A DNA stretch of 47,677 bases, taken from Oscillospiraceae bacterium. Its GTDB lineage: Bacteria; Bacillota; Clostridia; Oscillospirales; Oscillospiraceae. Where the stretch lies: positions 1 to 47,677 of the forward strand of contig JAFSAP010000003.1 of the NCBI GenBank assembly GCA_017440925.1, given 5' to 3'. The translations under genes and the position numbers were made by a program. Below, one piece after another: positions 3,049-47,531 of this stretch; the stretch's first letter is position 1; each line of letters starts with the position of its first letter. The notes under the pieces were generated by a model. That model was not told the DNA's origin. It saw only the letters and a list, made by a program, of their open reading frames with translations, and ran no database searches.

Positions 3049-4299
3049 ATGGCCTGGCTGGATAAAATGCATCATCCGGAATACTATGTAAAAACCTTTC
3101 TGAAATGGGGCTTTCTGGGACTGCTGATGGGTGCCCTCGGTGGACTGCTGGGTGCGATCTTCCACCATGCCCTGCACTTTGTGACCCACATCAGAAGCGA
3201 ACACACCTGGCTGATCTTCCTGCTGCCGGTGGGCGGTCTGCTGACAGTTGCACTGTACCGCGTACTGAAGATGCAGGGCAACCGCGGTACCAATGAGATC
3301 ATCGATGCTACATTGGATGGCCATAGTGTCAGCCCCATGGTGGCGCCTTCTATTTTTCTGGCAACGGCAATGACCCATCTGTTCGGCGGCTCTGCCGGCC
3401 GGGAGGGTGCAGCATTGCAGCTGGGCGGCTCCACGGCTTCCATGCTGGCAAAGCTCTTTAAGCTGGGAGAAGAAGATCGGAAGGTTATGGTCATGGCAGG
3501 CATGAGTGCAGTCTTTGCGGGCTTGTTTGGTACGCCGCTGACAGCAACCTTGTTCTGCATGGAGTTTGAATCCGTGGGAACTCTGTTTACCCCTGCGCTG
3601 CTGCCCTGCTATCTGGCAGCCTTTACTGCCAGCCGGGTATCCGGCCTGTTGGGGGTCCATGCGGAAACCTATCTGCTGGACAGTGTTTATGCCATCACCA
3701 TGGGTAACAGCTGGAAGTTCCTGGTGCTGGCCGTGCTGGTTTCCGGACTGGGAATTGCCATGTGTGCAGTATTTCATAAAGCGGAGCATCTGGCTGCCCA
3801 TCATCTGCCCAATCCCTATGTCCGCATTGCAGTTGGCGGCATCATCATTACTGTGCTGACCCTGCTGGTGGGCGACCACCGGTTCAACGGTGCCGGTATG
3901 GATATGGCTCTGAAAGCTGTGGGTGGTGAAGCAGACTGGTATTCCTTCCTGCTGAAACTGTTGTTCACCGCTGTGACCCTCTCTGCGGGCTTCAAGGGCG
4001 GTGAGATCGTCCCCACCTTCTGCATTGGCGCTACCTTTGGCTGTGTCCTGGGGGGCCTCCTGGGGCTGGATCCGGGTGTCGCAGCGGCATTGGGACTGGT
4101 GGGCCTGTTCTGCTGTGCCACCAACTCTCCCTTTGCCTCTATTGTGCTGAGCATTGAGATGTTCGGCAGTGCCAACTTGTATCTGTTTGCATTGATCTGT
4201 GTGATCTGCTTTGTGTTGTCCGGCCACAGCGGTCTGTATGCCAGCCAGATCATCCAATTCTCCAAGTCCGGTATTCCCGGAAGCCGGCAGGAACAGTAA
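3049..4299 (+). CDS. CLC family chloride channel or H+/anion antiporter
   Basis: The 416-residue product has the CLC fold signature. GGSAGREGAALQLGG around residues 113-127 corresponds to the family GREGP/A helix; Glu119 would be the gating/extracellular glutamate. FKGGEIVPTFCIGATFGCVLGGLLG near 322-346 matches the second anion-path motif, and GLFCCATNSPFASIVLSIEMFG near 355-380 the third. There is no C-terminal CBS pair, so it is a short, membrane-only member. The substrate (chloride, nitrate or fluoride) cannot be read with certainty; no fluoride riboswitch is seen upstream. It stands alone with its own promoter and a terminator shared with the convergent AraC-type gene. The ribosome site (AGAAGAGA) is weaker than its neighbours'. 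Confidence 0.9.
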   Translation: MAWLDKMHHPEYYVKTFLKWGFLGLLMGALGGLLGAIFHHALHFVTHIRSEHTWLIFLLPVGGLLTVALYRVLKMQGNRGTNEIIDATLDGHSVSPMVAPSIFLATAMTHLFGGSAGREGAALQLGGSTASMLAKLFKLGEEDRKVMVMAGMSAVFAGLFGTPLTATLFCMEFESVGTLFTPALLPCYLAAFTASRVSGLLGVHAETYLLDSVYAITMGNSWKFLVLAVLVSGLGIAMCAVFHKAEHLAAHHLPNPYVRIAVGGIIITVLTLLVGDHRFNGAGMDMALKAVGGEADWYSFLLKLLFTAVTLSAGFKGGEIVPTFCIGATFGCVLGGLLGLDPGVAAALGLVGLFCCATNSPFASIVLSIEMFGSANLYLFALICVICFVLSGHSGLYASQIIQFSKSGIPGSRQEQ

Positions 4300-4350: not shown

Positions 4351-5228
4351 CGGTATTGGGTTGGGGTGCATCCATATGCATCCCGGAAAGACTTTGTAAA
4401 ATAGCTCATATCCTGGAAACCGCAGGATGCAGCGATTTCGGAAATGGATAAAGGGGAATACAGCATCAGGCCAGCAGCCTGCCGGATGCGGTACTGTTTG
4501 AGATACTGAATGGGCGTGGTGCCGATGGAACTGCGGAAACAACGCAGGCATTCGCTTTCACCGATGGATGCGGCAGCTGCGATTTGGGAAATGGTCACGG
4601 TGTCACCATAATGCGCATGGAGAAAGGACAGCATGCTCTTGATCCGGTCTGCATCCCGGAAGTTCTTTGCCGTGGGCTGATAGGGTGTGTGGGGCATATT
4701 CTGCCAGAGCCTCAAGGTAAGTCTGGAAAGGGAACTGCGGACATTGAATTCATAGCCTGGCTCATTCCGGCTGCAGGCTTGCCAGGCAGCTTCAATGGCA
4801 TCCAGTGCATCCTGCTGCCAGGGGACTTCCGGCGACAGAGATATCCATTCCAAAGTCCGGTTTTCCATAACAGGCTGCACATAATTCTGATATATGGCAC
4901 TGTCCAGGCTGCCGCCCACAAGACGGGGATGAAAGACCAGTGAATGGAATACACAGCCGGTTGCATCTTCGTCCCAGCATCCGTGCAGAATACCGGAGTT
5001 GATAAAGAACCCTTCGCCGGCATGGAGTGTTCGTTTCTGCTGTCCTGCCACAACTGTACAGCTGCCGGAATGGATACGGACGGCCTCCCATTCTGTATGC
5101 CAGTGCCAGGGAACGTTCATAATTTGAAAGTCATCCTGGTAGCAGGCAACAGGAAAGGAGTCGCTTCCGTGTCTTGTCAGTTCCTGACCCTGGCTGTTGG
5201 TCTGAACACAACATTCGGATATCGCCAT
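4326..5228 (-). CDS. AraC family transcriptional regulator
   Basis: The 300-residue protein has an N-terminal cupin-like sensor (VPWHWHTEWEAVRIHSGS... HAGEGFFINSGILHG, about residues 40-85) and a C-terminal pair of helix-turn-helix motifs (about 200-298: TISQIAAAASIGESECLRCF, and LSISEIAASCGFQDMSYFTKSFRDAYGCTPTQYRK), the hallmark AraC/XylS DNA-binding domain. The start at 5228 is preferred over the in-frame ATG at 5255 because AAAGGAGG lies 6 bases before it. It is transcribed divergently from the MFS carrier gene 105 bases away, so it most likely controls that gene in response to a small, probably sugar-like, ligand. The stop codon lies inside a bidirectional terminator. The family is certain; the ligand is inferred only in general terms. 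Confidence 0.93.
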   Translation of the reverse strand: MAISECCVQTNSQGQELTRHGSDSFPVACYQDDFQIMNVPWHWHTEWEAVRIHSGSCTVVAGQQKRTLHAGEGFFINSGILHGCWDEDATGCVFHSLVFHPRLVGGSLDSAIYQNYVQPVMENRTLEWISLSPEVPWQQDALDAIEAAWQACSRNEPGYEFNVRSSLSRLTLRLWQNMPHTPYQPTAKNFRDADRIKSMLSFLHAHYGDTVTISQIAAAASIGESECLRCFRSSIGTTPIQYLKQYRIRQAAGLMLYSPLSISEIAASCGFQDMSYFTKSFRDAYGCTPTQYRKKECRSD

Positions 5229-5333
5229 GGAAGCCTCCTTTGACGGTTTTCTCATAGAAAAATGACGGAATAGACATAACAGTTTCTATTTCTTGATGAT
5301 ATAATCATAGCAGAAATAAAGGAGGAAAGCAAT
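5229..5333. promoter_or_regulatory. Divergent control region, AraC-type gene / MFS gene
   Basis: A consensus -10 TATAAT for the MFS gene is at 5300-5305, but the base block 17 upstream (TAACAG) is a poor -35, which fits an activator-dependent promoter. A TAGACA at 5271-5276 is 23 bases away, too far for sigma-A. No clear AraC half-sites could be picked out by eye. Confidence 0.5.
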
Positions 5334-6488
5334 ATGGCAAGTTTTCTTTTGGCAATTATTTATATATCTTTTGTGAGCCTGGGCCTGCCCGATGCATTGC
5401 TTGGTGCCGCCTGGCCGACCATGCAGACCGATCTGGCGGTTCCTGTATCCTATGCAGGCGGCCTTTCTCTGATCATAGCCATCGGGACAGTGATCTCCAG
5501 TCTGCAGGCAGACCGCCTGGCCAAATGGCTTGGTACCGGAAAGATCATGGTCATCAGTGTGGCAATGACAGCCCTGGCGATTTATGGCTTTTCTGCCAGC
5601 AGTGCCTACTGGCAGCTGTGTCTCTGGGCCATTCCCTATGGCCTGGGTGCCGGAAGCGTAGATGCAGCACTGAATAACTATGTGGCGTTGCATTATGCCA
5701 GCCGCCATATGAGCTGGCTGCACTGCATGTGGGGCCTGGGTGCCAGCATCGGCCCTTATATCATGGGCGCGGCACTGACCGGGGGTCTTAGCTGGAATAT
5801 GGGTTACGGCATCATTGCTGTTCTACAGGTGATCCTCACTGCTGTGCTGTTCTTCACCATCCCTCTGTGGAAAAAGCAGACCCTGGAGGCAAATGGAGAA
5901 ACGGCACCTGCACCGCTGACTTTGAAGCAGATCGTGGGGATCCCCGGTGCGAAAGAGGTCATGGTGGCGTTCTTCTGCTACTGTGCACTGGAACAGACGG
6001 CTATTTTGTGGGGCAGTTCCTACCTGGTAAGGCACAATGGCTTGGATGAGGAAACAGCAGCAAGCCTGGCCAGCCTGTTTCTCATTGGACTGACCATAGG
6101 GCGGGGACTGAACGGTTTCCTGACATATAAACTCAGCGATGCCAATCTGATCCGGTTGGGCCAGGGGATCATTGCCCTGGGTGTTGGCATCATGCTGCTG
6201 CCCCTGGGAGCAGCTGCCAGCTTTGCAGGGTTGATGCTCTGCGGTCTGGGCTGTGCACCGGTTTACCCATGCATTATCCATTCCACACCGGAACACTTTG
6301 GCGAGGAAAATTCCCAGGCGCTGATCGGTGTCCAGATGGCCAGCGCCTATGTGGGCATCTGTGTTATGCCTCCGGTATTTGGTCTGCTGGCCCGGTATAT
6401 CACAGCCTCTTTGCTGCCCTGGTACTTAGGCGGAATCCTGGTGGTGATGATCGCAATGTGTGAGCGGCTGAACCGAATCTGCAAATAA
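5334..6488 (+). CDS. MFS transporter
   Basis: The 384-residue product has about twelve membrane segments and the fold of the FucP/YfkF-like branch of the major facilitator superfamily: FVSLGLPDALLGAAWPTMQTDL at 10-31, a motif of the loop 2-3 type (QADRLAKWLGTGKIMV, about 62-77), SAYWQLCLWAIPYGLGAGSVDAALNNYVALHY at 85-120 and GLGCAPVYPCIIHSTPEHFG in the C-half. Carriers with this SVDAALNNYVA segment often move sugars or other small polar solutes, but the substrate is not readable. The ribosome site AAAGGAGG is ideal. The divergent AraC regulator suggests substrate-induced expression. A bidirectional terminator follows at 6535. Confidence 0.88.
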   Translation: MASFLLAIIYISFVSLGLPDALLGAAWPTMQTDLAVPVSYAGGLSLIIAIGTVISSLQADRLAKWLGTGKIMVISVAMTALAIYGFSASSAYWQLCLWAIPYGLGAGSVDAALNNYVALHYASRHMSWLHCMWGLGASIGPYIMGAALTGGLSWNMGYGIIAVLQVILTAVLFFTIPLWKKQTLEANGETAPAPLTLKQIVGIPGAKEVMVAFFCYCALEQTAILWGSSYLVRHNGLDEETAASLASLFLIGLTIGRGLNGFLTYKLSDANLIRLGQGIIALGVGIMLLPLGAAASFAGLMLCGLGCAPVYPCIIHSTPEHFGEENSQALIGVQMASAYVGICVMPPVFGLLARYITASLLPWYLGGILVVMIAMCERLNRICK

Positions 6489-44407: not shown

Positions 44408-44920
44408 TTAATATTCTCCTAGCCAGCGGGCAGAGGCGGTGGGTACTGCCTTGCCGGCAGCGAGGCTCTTGGGCACATCCAGGATCCGCTGGTTGCGGCT
44501 GCCCCGGAAAGCAATCTCCAGGCTCTTCTCGGCCATGAGAAAGGGGCCGTCAATGAGAATGTCGATGGTGGCCAGCAATTCTTTCTGGTCCTCAGAGCCA
44601 TTCAGAAGTTCCTCAAAGGTGTAGCCGGAATAGGATGCCACTTCATATCCCTGTGCTTTCAGCAGCCGGGCAAGCTTTGCAAAGCCTGCCGCCTGGGCAA
44701 AGGGCTCGCCGCCGGAGAAAGTCACACCCCGGCACAGGGGATTGGATTTCACCACATCCACAAGTTCCTCCACGGGAACGGTGGTGCCGCAGCCAAAATC
44801 CCAGGTTTCCGGATTGTGGCAGCCGGGACAGTGGTGAGGACAGCCCTGGCAGAAAAAGGTGGTGCGGATACCGGGGCCATCCACGATGCTGTCGCTGACG
44901 ATGCCGCTTAAATCAAGCAT
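44408..44920 (-). CDS. nrdG: Anaerobic ribonucleotide reductase activating protein
   Basis: The 170-residue product is the radical-SAM activase of class III ribonucleotide reductase. The N-terminal IVSDSIVDGPGIRTTFFCQGCPHHCPGCHNPETWDF carries the cysteines for the 4Fe-4S cluster that cleaves S-adenosylmethionine, and VTFSGGEPFAQA is the SAM-binding GGE motif. It places the glycyl radical on the reductase. Its ATG lies inside the end of the 53-residue glycyl-radical gene (8-base overlap), coupling translation of the activase to that of its target peptide. It closes the operon before a strong terminator. Confidence 0.96.
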   Translation of the reverse strand: MLDLSGIVSDSIVDGPGIRTTFFCQGCPHHCPGCHNPETWDFGCGTTVPVEELVDVVKSNPLCRGVTFSGGEPFAQAAGFAKLARLLKAQGYEVASYSGYTFEELLNGSEDQKELLATIDILIDGPFLMAEKSLEIAFRGSRNQRILDVPKSLAAGKAVPTASARWLGEY

Positions 44921-45074
44921 TGCCGTTCAGACCGTGCTTGACGCGGTCCCGCTCCTCAGCCCGCTTGGCATCGTTCCATTTATCCATGGTGCCCACCAGA
45001 TAGCCGGTGATGCGGCGGATCCGCTCGAAACCGACACCCTGGCCCAGCTTTTCGCTCTTGCTCTTAACAGTCAT
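44913..45074 (-). CDS. Stand-alone glycyl-radical domain of anaerobic ribonucleotide reductase
   Basis: This 53-residue protein contains GFERIRRITGYLVGTMDKWNDAKRAEERDRVKHG (about 15-48), the sequence that normally ends NrdD. In E. coli the matching end reads RRVCGYLG...FNAGKQEE. Gly24 in ITGYL is the candidate radical residue. AAGGAGG lies 9 bases before the ATG at 45074. The gene is 97 bases after the end of nrdD, in another frame, and overlaps nrdG by 8 bases. So the radical tail is made as a separate peptide that should dock on the large NrdD protein. The family match is strong; the two-part enzyme is inferred. Confidence 0.85.
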   Translation of the reverse strand: MTVKSKSEKLGQGVGFERIRRITGYLVGTMDKWNDAKRAEERDRVKHGLNGNA

Positions 45075-45109
45075 AGTAATATTCCTCCTTCTGGAATTGA
45101 CAGGTCTTG

Positions 45110-45126
45110 GGAAAGGCATTCTTTCC
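45110..45126 (-). other. Small hairpin between nrdD and the glycyl-radical gene
   Basis: GGAAAG (45110-45115) and CTTTCC (45121-45126) can form a 6-bp stem with a 5-base loop in the 97-base gap. No T-run follows, so it is unlikely to end transcription; it could slow decay or set the ratio of the two products. Confidence 0.4.
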
Positions 45127-45171
45127 ATGGGACCATTATGGCATATTTGGAAAATGTCTTCTGTGACAATG

Positions 45172-47457
45172 TTACTCAATGCCCTGGAAGGCAGGCATTT
45201 CGGGGTACATCCGCTTCAGTTCTTCGATGCGCTCGGGGGCGATCTCCTCACCCTCCCGGCGGCCGCAGCGGGGACAGACATCGCCGATGATACCCACATA
45301 GCCGCAGATGGGGTCGCGGTCAACGGGATGGTTGATGGAGCCGTAACCAACGCCGCAGTCATGCATGTGGCGGACGACAGTCTCAAAGGCTTCCACGTTC
45401 CGGGCGGTATCACCGTCCAGCTCCACATAGCTGATGTGGCCGGCGTTGCACAGGGCGTGGTAGGGGCCTTCCAGGCGGATCTTGTCGTAGACGGAGATGG
45501 GATACCAGACGGGGATATGGAAGGAGTTGGTGTAGTATTCCCGGTCAGTGACGCCGGGGATCTTGCCGTAGCGCTTCTTGTCCATGCGGATAAAGCGGCC
45601 GGACAGACCCTCTGCGGGTGTTGCCAGCAGGGTGATGTTCATCTTCATTTCCTGGGACTTGCTGTCGCAGTAGGAACGCATGAAGTTCAGAATCTCCAGA
45701 CCCTTTGCCTGGATCTCTTCGCTCTGGCCGTGGTGTTTGCCGTAGAGACTGGTGAGCGTCTCAGCAAGGCCGATAAAGCCGATGGACAGAGTACCGTGCT
45801 TCAGAACCTCCCGCAGATCATCCTGCAGCGTCAGATGGTCGCTGTCCAGCCATACGCCCTGGCCCATGAGGAAGGGGTAGTTGTAGATGTGCTTGTTGGC
45901 CTGAATCTCAAAACGGTCCAGCAGCTGTTGGGTAACCAGATCCAGCATATGCTGCAGTTTTTCGTAGAACAGCTTTTCATTGCCCTCAGACTCAATGGCG
46001 ATTCTGGGCAGATTGATGGAGGTGAAGCTGAGGTTGCCACGGGAGTAGGCGATCTGGCGGCTGGGATCATAGACGTTGCCCATAACACGGGTACGGCAGC
46101 CCATGGTGGCCACTTCCGTTTCAGGACGGCCGGGGACATAGTACTGCAGGTTGTAGGGAGCATCCAGGAAGGTATAGTTGGGGAACAGCCGCTTGGCGCT
46201 GACCCGGCAGCTCAGGCGGAAGAGGTCATAGTTGGGGTCACCTTCGTTATAGTTGATGTCTTCTTTGACCTTGAAAATGTGGATGGGGAAGATGCAGGTC
46301 TCACCATGGCCCAGACCGGCTTCCAGAGCCAGCAGAACATTGCGGATGACCATGCGGCCTTCGGGAGAGGTGTCAGTGCCATAGTTGATGGAGGAGAAGG
46401 GAGTCTGGGCACCGGCACGGGAGTGCATGGTGTTCAGGTTGTGGACAAAACCCTCCATGGCCTGGTAGGTATCCCGGTCAGCCTTTTTGAGGGCCCGTTT
46501 TCTGGCCCGGGCGATGAGGCTGTCAGCAGCCTCCTGGGACAGGCTGTACTGCTTCTGCAGACCAACGGAGACGGCGGGATCAAACTGGGAACAGTTTTCA
46601 ATCCGGGCAGTTTCCTTACAGATGCTTTCTGCGGCATTGACAATGCCTTTGATGGTTTCGGCTTCATCCTCCAGATCCAGACGATCCTCCAGGGCTTCCT
46701 TCAGCAGGCGGATATAAGCCTTGCGGTAGGTCTTGGCAACGCCCTCGGCCATGCCATAGTCAAAGTTGGGGATGGACTGGCCGCCGTGCTGGTCATTCTG
46801 GTTGGACTGGATGGCAATGGCAGCCAGGGCGGCATAGCTCTGGATGCTCTGGGGCTCTCTTAAGTAACCGTGGCCGGTGGAGAAACCGCCGTGGAACAGC
46901 TTCAGAATATCGATCTGGCAGCAGGTGGTTGTGAGGCTGTAGAAGTCGAAATCGTGAATATGGATATCGCCTTCCCGGTAGGCCTTGGCATGCTCAGGCC
47001 GCAGCAGGTACATTTCATTGTAAGCTTTGGCACCGGCAGCGCCGATCTGCAGCATGGAGCCCATGGCGGTGTTGCCGTCGATGTTGGCGTTGTCGCGCTT
47101 CATATCGCTGATGCGGGCATCGATGTTGGTGATCTCATCGATGGTCTTCATCAGGGTGGTGTTGGCCTCTCTTGCCCGGGTACGGTTGGCACGGTACAGG
47201 ATGTAAGCTTTGGCAGCGGAGCTGAAACCGTGGTTCATCAGCTGGCGTTCAACGGTATCCTGAATGGCCTCAATGCCGGGGGCCTTCTGGGCGGAGAACT
47301 GGCTTTCCAGATCCCGCTGGACATCGTTGGCAACTCTTGCGGCATCGGCAGCGTTGCCGTCACCGGAGACTTCCAGCGCCCGCAGGATGGCACCGGCGAT
47401 CTTGCTCTGATCGTATAAGACGACACGACCGTCGCGCTTGATAATACTCTGAATCAT
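45172..47457 (-). CDS. nrdD: Anaerobic ribonucleoside-triphosphate reductase, large part without glycyl-radical tail
   Basis: The 761-residue product has an N-terminal ATP-cone (MIQSIIKRDGRVVLYDQSKIAGAILRALEVSG...RVANDVQRDLE, 1-90) for allosteric control and the class III reductase barrel (GHGYLREPQSIQSY, QNDQHGGQSIPNFDYG, CRTRVMGN, RGNLSFTSINLPRIA). It ends in a zinc-ribbon remnant DPICGYVGIIGDVCPRCG (Cys718, 728, 731; Asp where a fourth Cys is often found), then about 29 unrelated residues. The usual RVTGYLVG-type glycyl-radical tail is missing and is supplied by the next gene. The start at 47457 follows AAGGACT; an upstream in-frame ATG at 47502 lies in an NrdR box. It reduces NTPs to dNTPs, without oxygen. 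Confidence 0.95.
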   Translation of the reverse strand: MIQSIIKRDGRVVLYDQSKIAGAILRALEVSGDGNAADAARVANDVQRDLESQFSAQKAPGIEAIQDTVERQLMNHGFSSAAKAYILYRANRTRAREANTTLMKTIDEITNIDARISDMKRDNANIDGNTAMGSMLQIGAAGAKAYNEMYLLRPEHAKAYREGDIHIHDFDFYSLTTTCCQIDILKLFHGGFSTGHGYLREPQSIQSYAALAAIAIQSNQNDQHGGQSIPNFDYGMAEGVAKTYRKAYIRLLKEALEDRLDLEDEAETIKGIVNAAESICKETARIENCSQFDPAVSVGLQKQYSLSQEAADSLIARARKRALKKADRDTYQAMEGFVHNLNTMHSRAGAQTPFSSINYGTDTSPEGRMVIRNVLLALEAGLGHGETCIFPIHIFKVKEDINYNEGDPNYDLFRLSCRVSAKRLFPNYTFLDAPYNLQYYVPGRPETEVATMGCRTRVMGNVYDPSRQIAYSRGNLSFTSINLPRIAIESEGNEKLFYEKLQHMLDLVTQQLLDRFEIQANKHIYNYPFLMGQGVWLDSDHLTLQDDLREVLKHGTLSIGFIGLAETLTSLYGKHHGQSEEIQAKGLEILNFMRSYCDSKSQEMKMNITLLATPAEGLSGRFIRMDKKRYGKIPGVTDREYYTNSFHIPVWYPISVYDKIRLEGPYHALCNAGHISYVELDGDTARNVEAFETVVRHMHDCGVGYGSINHPVDRDPICGYVGIIGDVCPRCGRREGEEIAPERIEELKRMYPEMPAFQGIE

Positions 47458-47483: not shown

Positions 47484-47499
47484 ACACAATATGTTGTGT
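47484..47499 (-). promoter_or_regulatory. NrdR box 1 of the nrd operon
   Basis: ACACAATATGTTGTGT, a perfect palindrome in the NrdR consensus form (ACACwAtATaTwGTgT). It lies downstream of the -10. Confidence 0.9.
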
Positions 47500-47515: not shown

Positions 47516-47531
47516 CCACAATATATTGCCA
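47516..47531 (-). promoter_or_regulatory. NrdR box 2 of the nrd operon
   Basis: CCACAATATATTGCCA, an NrdR-like box 32 bases (about three helical turns) from box 1 and overlapping the -10, as is usual for paired NrdR sites. Confidence 0.8.

Follow-up and report, generated by a model that had tools for sequence, protein, structure and literature searches.

The locus

The window analyzed here, a 47,677-nucleotide stretch of contig JAFSAP010000003.1 from an Oscillospiraceae bacterium (assembly GCA_017440925.1), encodes on its minus strand a class III ribonucleotide reductase (RNR), with the genes in the order nrdD, a small open reading frame (ORF) here called the tail gene, and nrdG (Table 1). 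Class III RNRs supply DNA precursors in strict anaerobes, and oxygen destroys their glycyl radical. An earlier note made from the sequence had described the 761-residue NrdD as ending about 30 residues after its CPRCG zinc-ribbon motif and lacking the glycyl-radical tail, and the next, 53-residue ORF as a separately encoded tail with its own AAGGAGG site; we found the same, with 29 residues following CPRCG. The 97-base gap between the two genes (45075-45171) places them in different frames, and because nrdG occupies 44408-44920 it overlaps the tail gene by 8 bases. A longer TTG start for the tail (88 residues, 44913-45179) was rejected, as all 79 loci described below offer an ATG and a Shine-Dalgarno-like site at the short start (47-66 residues).

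The NRDD family model PF13597 is split over the two ORFs. Model positions 1-531 match the 761-residue chain (601 bits), which contains the NRDD domain with its radical cysteine; the match stops there, and positions 533-562, the normal NrdD end, are found in the separate tail ORF. In the NrdD of Prevotella copri, Cys416 and Gly711 are the radical residues, according to excerpts of PMC11226230. Alignment to this structure (PDB 8p23, with a 4-residue chain offset subtracted to reach the published numbering) places Cys454 of the large chain on Cys416 and Gly24 of the small one on Gly711; the radical pair is complete but lies on two proteins. The NrdG of the window is a radical S-adenosylmethionine activase of the class III type, scoring above the TIGR02491 cut-off and carrying the CX3CX2C motif. 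A Pfam search with the tail protein (P0001) at E values up to 1 returned PF13597 and no match to PF01228 (Gly_radical), and the 761-residue NrdD has a weak PF01228 match below the cut-off (15.5 versus 22.2 bits).

The absence of the tail from NrdD, as claimed earlier, holds; the implied simple cut of an ordinary enzyme does not, as NrdD has its own conserved C-terminal extension, with a pattern of about ERxxELRKxYPxMPxFxG, and the tail carries a short N-terminal extension. The window's own genome, a 1.92-Mb metagenome-assembled genome (MAG) that is 68% complete, contains no second NRDD match, full-length or otherwise, no further copy of the tail, and no match to PF02867, the profile of the class I/II large subunit.

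Table 1. Features of the split class III RNR locus in the window
Feature	Position	Strand	Basis
nrdD core gene, 761 residues: ATP-cone, catalytic barrel, zinc-ribbon motif, without glycyl-radical tail	45172..47457 (including stop)	minus	PF03477; PF13597 1-531; NF005497 1-710 of 746
Standalone glycyl-radical tail protein, 53 residues	44913..45074 (including stop)	minus	PF13597 533-562, above curated cut-off; PDB 8p23 residues 708-739, E 1.7e-10 (profile A1)
nrdG activase, 170 residues, CX3CX2C	44408..44920	minus	TIGR02491, 135.7 bits versus cut-off 126.1
Codon of Cys454 in NrdD	46096..46098	minus	Alignment to 8p23, on radical Cys416 of P. copri NrdD
Codon of Gly24 (RRITGYL) in tail protein	45003..45005	minus	Aligns with radical Gly711 of P. 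copri NrdD
NrdD C-terminal extension after CPRCG, 29 residues, candidate docking element	45175..45261	minus	Conserved columns; pN/pS 0.38
Shine-Dalgarno AAGGAGG of tail gene, 9 nt before ATG	45084..45090	minus	
NrdR-box-like site ACACAACATATTGTGT	47484..47499	minus	15/16 match to the consensus we assumed
Second, weaker NrdR-box-like site TGGCAATATATTGTGG	47516..47531	minus	12/16 match to the consensus we assumed

Conservation and selection among relatives

The earlier note had proposed a search for relatives whose NrdD ends at the zinc ribbon and is followed by a small gene. In a genome scan with one genome per species, from which the best 80 of 398 NrdD relatives were retained, 79 of these 80 best loci have a separate tail ORF and an NrdD frame without the tail motif, and in the 80th (L091) the contig ends inside NrdD. 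The split is therefore neither a chance event nor an artefact. It is conserved across several genera, and the named carriers are Gemmiger sp. An87, An194, and An50, Fournierella massiliensis DSM 100451, Faecalimonas umbilicata DSM 103426, and [Clostridium] fimetarium DSM 9179. Left out of the counts were L091 and L039 (contig ends inside NrdD), L045 (a contig-end fragment), L164 (a decayed NrdD copy), L163 (a C-terminal piece of NrdD with its tail, the remainder being absent from the 6.6 kb read), and L047-L049, for which no tail was obtained. A less biased set came from a PF13597 search of 60 relatives, nine of which have an NrdD read as truncated within its contig (G007, G011, G013, G020, G021, G039, G048, G051, G058); each of the nine is accompanied by a tail ORF no more than about 0.3 kb away, and the other early-ending NrdD matches read among these 60 (G015, G018, G024, G029) reach contig ends.

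Across the loci, the gap between nrdD and the tail gene ranges from 11 to 669 nt and falls in all frames (remainders 0, 1, and 2 in 45, 15, and 19 of 79). The tail ORF starts with ATG in 79/79 loci, is preceded by five to seven bases of AAGGAGG in 77, and has its Shine-Dalgarno sequence at 7-8 nt in 71, counts that lean this way through a start-picking rule that prefers both. In 14 loci the stop codon of NrdD lies within the Shine-Dalgarno sequence of the tail, as TAAGGAGG. The tail gene overlaps the aligned start of nrdG in 56 of 78 loci and is at most 60 nt away in 21 more, in keeping with the earlier suggestion that the tail is made in step with its activase.

The core of the tail is under purifying selection: mean pairwise differences at codon positions 1, 2, and 3 are 0.06, 0.03, and 0.42, and the ratio of nonsynonymous to synonymous differences (pN/pS) is 0.07 (79 loci plus the window, 80 sequences). 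The ten codons ahead of the core have a pN/pS of 0.51 (78 sequences), and the C-terminal extension of NrdD one of 0.38 (79 loci). Five of the 26 columns counted in this extension are near-invariant (G3, P19, and F24 in 79/79; L14 and G26 in 78/79), and it is on these that we regard it as a conserved element, perhaps a dock. The radical loop is invariant among 27 aligned tails.

Upstream of nrdD, NrdR-box-like sites (at least 12/16 matches to what we take to be the consensus) lie within 200 nt in 56 of 77 loci, compared with 0 of 77 for an intragenic control stretch.

Unlinked tails and other RNRs in carrier genomes

The arrangement in trans was examined in 42 genomes, chosen because a standalone tail or split pair had already been seen in them; at least one NrdD C-terminus was read in each. 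Truncated NrdD alone is present in 20, fused NrdD with a standalone tail in 21, and both kinds in one (G578). A standalone tail was found in all 20 truncated-only genomes, a figure biased by their having been picked through tail or split-pair matches. In one family, five genomes (G648, G578, G474, G689, G625) have the tail next to nrdG and the truncated NrdD elsewhere, on another contig or, in the one-contig genome G625, about 430 kb from both. NrdD and tail are likewise on separate contigs in G430, G284, G510, and G271. Neither a frameshift nor read-through can join pieces that are so far apart.

By profile search, PF02867 has no match in 14 of the 20 truncated-only genomes, which are 95-100% complete (G430, G284, G234, G344, G474, G689, G625, G669, G452, G494, G646, G667, G039, G051), and it has a match in the other six (G298, G271, G648, G602, G729, G510). 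Among 12 genomes behind named loci, three have split NrdD only and no PF02867 match (a Negativibacillus MAG, Faecalibacterium sp. UBA7177, and a Christensenella MAG), five have a PF02867 match, all three Gemmiger included, and four have the split together with a full-length NRDD match and no PF02867 match. Such profile-based absences do not prove that the genomes lack these enzymes. Its presence in several genera, purifying selection, unlinked genes, and its place in the only detected RNR of several near-complete genomes together give strong sequence support to the view, put forward in the earlier note, that the radical subunit is permanently separate.

A predicted two-subunit enzyme

We propose that the window encodes a working class III RNR made of two chains, a reading to which we assign a probability of roughly 0.87; the two-subunit arrangement that it predicts is well supported by the comparative data. 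ATP-cone, zinc-ribbon motif, and the barrel that holds Cys454 would come from the 761-residue NrdD, and the loop bearing the glycyl radical, in trans, from the 53-residue protein. NrdG, translated in step with the small protein, would abstract hydrogen from Gly24. According to the available portion of PMC12662201, NrdG acts on known class III RNRs by way of a radical domain that flips out; here NrdG could activate the tail while it is free or loosely bound, and the tail could then dock beside Cys454. The split could also help to show how NrdG gains access to the glycine, a step for which fused enzymes need the flip-out described in that source. The radical-bearing tail would occupy the site filled by the fused tail in ordinary NrdDs and hand the radical to Cys454. 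The C-terminal extension of NrdD and the N-terminal extension of the tail probably hold the chains together, and the former may act like residues 696-733 of pyruvate formate-lyase (PFL), which, according to excerpts of PMC8683613, are needed for binding of the spare part YfiD.

Several observations weigh against this proposal. In several split-type genomes there is a further NRDD match or a class I/II RNR as well, so that the split enzyme is not always the sole RNR, and the sequence of the window's genome, a MAG of 68% completeness, might lack a second RNR that the organism has. Two genomes, G344 (locus L287) and G234 (L288), each carry an additional NrdD-like gene that lacks both zinc motif and tail; some tailless NrdDs may thus not be active RNRs. 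Furthermore, an independent-pairs test of tail against split was not significant (mean of 4.1 of 7 pairs for and 0 against, median p 0.125; rows chosen by us). The NrdD-like proteins of L287 and L288, of about 750 residues, end before the zinc-ribbon motif and overlap their own nrdG; at the position of the radical cysteine, read for L287 only, that protein has GNN instead of GCR. Each is likely a pseudoenzyme with an activase, to judge from these features.

One alternative extends the two-chain reading rather than opposing it, and we regard it as possible, at slightly under even odds: the small protein may be mainly a replaceable spare part, such that when oxygen cleaves at the radical glycine, a fresh 53-residue protein is swapped in and the 761-residue chain is kept. 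Fused NrdD is paired with a standalone tail in 21 of the 42 chosen genomes, extra tails are present in G298 (three), L098 (two in tandem), and Faecalibacterium sp. UBA7177 (two, the second unlinked), and PFL provides a precedent, with further spare parts for glycyl radical enzymes thought possible in the sections of PMC8683613 consulted. Selection could, however, maintain the split for other reasons, for example dosage or activation by NrdG. We infer replaceability, which the earlier note also proposed, from the indirect support given by the genomes with fused NrdD plus tail and by those with two or three tails. If this is correct, cells could, by having the radical site on a small protein of its own, replace what oxygen has broken without discarding the large enzyme.

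The remaining alternatives compete with the two-chain reading. A regulatory role for the small protein, for example as a decoy substrate of NrdG instead of a catalytic radical site, is conceivable where a fused NrdD is also present, but we consider it improbable, given that the 20 truncated-only genomes yielded no fused tail and that the radical loop does not vary among the aligned tails. Still less probable is a single fused chain produced by programmed frameshift, stop read-through, or splicing. In 15 of 79 loci the stop is indeed followed 12 nt later by the tail, in the same frame, but these cases follow from the fixed spacing of a stop placed within the Shine-Dalgarno sequence (TAAGGAGG in 14, TGAGGAGG in 1), 7 nt before the ATG; the gaps fall in all three frames, and in other families there are tails that are not linked to NrdD. 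The different frames of NrdD and tail could suggest a decaying NrdD pseudogene with the tail as a leftover, but purifying selection on the tail, the recurrence in 79/80 loci, and the lack of any other detected RNR in some genomes leave this idea hardly credible. An assembly or sequencing frameshift in a normal gene is the least credible of all: any single MAG could be wrong, but the split recurs in many assemblies, isolates included, with gaps of variable length (11-669 nt) and, in other families, with unlinked pieces.

Relation to known systems

The nearest solved enzyme is the P. copri NrdD (8p23; PRK07111/NF005497 type), which has in common with the window the ATP-cone, barrel, radical cysteine, zinc-ribbon motif, RITGYLVGT loop, and nrdG activase. 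In P. copri, however, the radical domain is in the same chain, whereas the window has a separate gene and an extra C-terminal extension on NrdD. GrcA/YfiD and T4 Y06I, the spare parts of PFL described in the available text of PMC8683613, are likewise small standalone copies of the glycyl-radical end of a larger enzyme. The window tail differs from them in resembling NrdD and not PFL, and in that the split form has it as its only radical site, always used and not an emergency copy. Two other systems are divided in different ways: the class II NrdJa/NrdJb of Pseudomonas aeruginosa also spreads an RNR chain over two genes (PMC9669993, in part) but, unlike the RNR of the window, has no glycyl radical, and phage nrdD genes in several coding pieces (PMC3653736) are, in the excerpts of that paper, cases of intron, intein, or unexplained fragmentation, with no standalone radical tail reported there.

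The earlier note knew of no such NrdD, and we likewise found no account of a class III RNR whose radical site is on a protein of its own in the portions of the open-access full-text literature covered (including PMC9669993, PMC9531940, PMC11226230, PMC11528403, PMC8683613, PMC12288474, PMC3653736, PMC11194802, PMC12662201, and PMC2795772), which does not prove that none exists. According to excerpts of Andorfer et al. (PMC8683613), only YfiD and Y06I have been validated as spare parts, and others may exist; the standalone tails of gut bacteria, cultured ones among them, and of phages would provide concrete candidates. They also carry a warning for annotation: NrdD looks truncated, and the small tail ORF is easily overlooked. 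None of the six standalone tails scanned matched a Pfam or NCBIfam model dedicated to such proteins.

A wider family of standalone tails

We take the split of the window, on sequence relationships, to be one branch of a wider family of standalone tails that includes phages. Many of these tails are longer, about 85-112 residues, with an added N-terminal domain of the approximate pattern V-V-GG-LS-EI-AY-EKYP-...-DGD-VDI-Y, followed by FERIRRITGYLVG; one of the 43 tails aligned as long (L041) is of the short type with a wrongly chosen start. All five long tails scanned match the NRDD end, one of them below the Pfam cut-off, and in these five no other family scored above any cut-off and PF01228 had no match. 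Long tails are found directly between fused NrdD and nrdG (G327, G345, G357, G252, G140), unlinked in fused-NrdD genomes, and together with truncated NrdD. Where it accompanies a fused NrdD, the long tail may be a spare part of the class III RNR. In the genomes of loci L098, L168, L169, and L289, the tail is present in two or three copies.

The order of events was considered on a tree of 93 NrdD cores, with rows chosen by us and the C-terminus and ATP-cone excluded. Changes between split and fused number at least 11 on the best tree and at least 7 when only well-supported branches are counted, and the splits seem to have arisen repeatedly from a state of fused NrdD plus standalone tail. In genus g32, G404 has a fused NrdD and an unlinked tail, and G430 and G284 have a truncated NrdD and an unlinked tail; the NrdD of G510 ends in NEVEFERIHRITE, a stub of the lost motif, and its long tail is on another contig. 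These patterns fit an order in which the spare part came first and NrdD lost its own tail second, a direction drawn from them since the tree alone cannot separate gain from loss. A single origin for the window clade and a second short-tail clade was rejected (p-AU 0.018), weakly so, because the grouping was named after the tree had been seen.

In one further locus (L302, in G311; 3590-4288 and 4411-5910), only the last piece of NrdD, with zinc motif and tail, precedes nrdG; unrelated ORFs on the opposite strand lie beyond it, and the gene seems to have been cut by an insertion or rearrangement.

Viruses and phages

The window NrdD matched 46 IMG/VR loci, all of which were read: 28 are fused, 11 truncated, six are contig-end fragments, and one is an interrupted piece (L246). 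A standalone tail is present in 11/11 virus records with truncated NrdD, some of which are near-copies. An extra standalone tail was found in none of the nine records searched among the 28 with fused NrdD, and the fetched flanks of fused viral loci contain no standalone tail in any case. Two of the truncated loci (L201, L231) may be bacterial DNA, given their short-type tails and clustering with bacterial sequences, and fewer than nine of the other nine are independent, since L213 and L214 share the same tail, as do L225 and L226. Comparison with PHROGs of two truncated virus records identified helicase, exonuclease, endonuclease, MazG, and polymerase-like genes in one and exonuclease and endonuclease genes in the other. 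The complete genome of Eggerthella phage EL753P1, whose host is Eggerthella lenta, encodes an NrdD without the tail and a tail gene about 365 bp on.

On the bacterial and viral loci together, we think it rather probable that the autonomous glycyl-radical proteins of class III RNR, mostly of about 85-112 residues with the extra N-terminal domain, form a general family in anaerobes and their phages. These proteins would first have served as spare parts beside full-length NrdD, and NrdD would then have lost its own tail repeatedly, so that both subunits became obligate, the radical one as a disposable cartridge. By sequence, the oxygen-sensitive radical tip of the anaerobic RNR is in many gut bacteria, and in some phages, encoded as its own tiny protein, much like a cartridge.

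Three minor observations concern the viral genes. The tail gene of EL753P1 (L294, 4417-4650) is interrupted inside the radical motif, with a hypothetical protein ending in FERIRRI and the remainder in another frame. In L238 and L246, a long insert, perhaps an intron or intein, interrupts the virus NrdD at the QNDQH/GGQ site. Finally, downstream of the split nrdD operon in L290 is a phage gene (9838-12909) that scores 1249 bits to a PHROG named RNA-dependent RNA polymerase.

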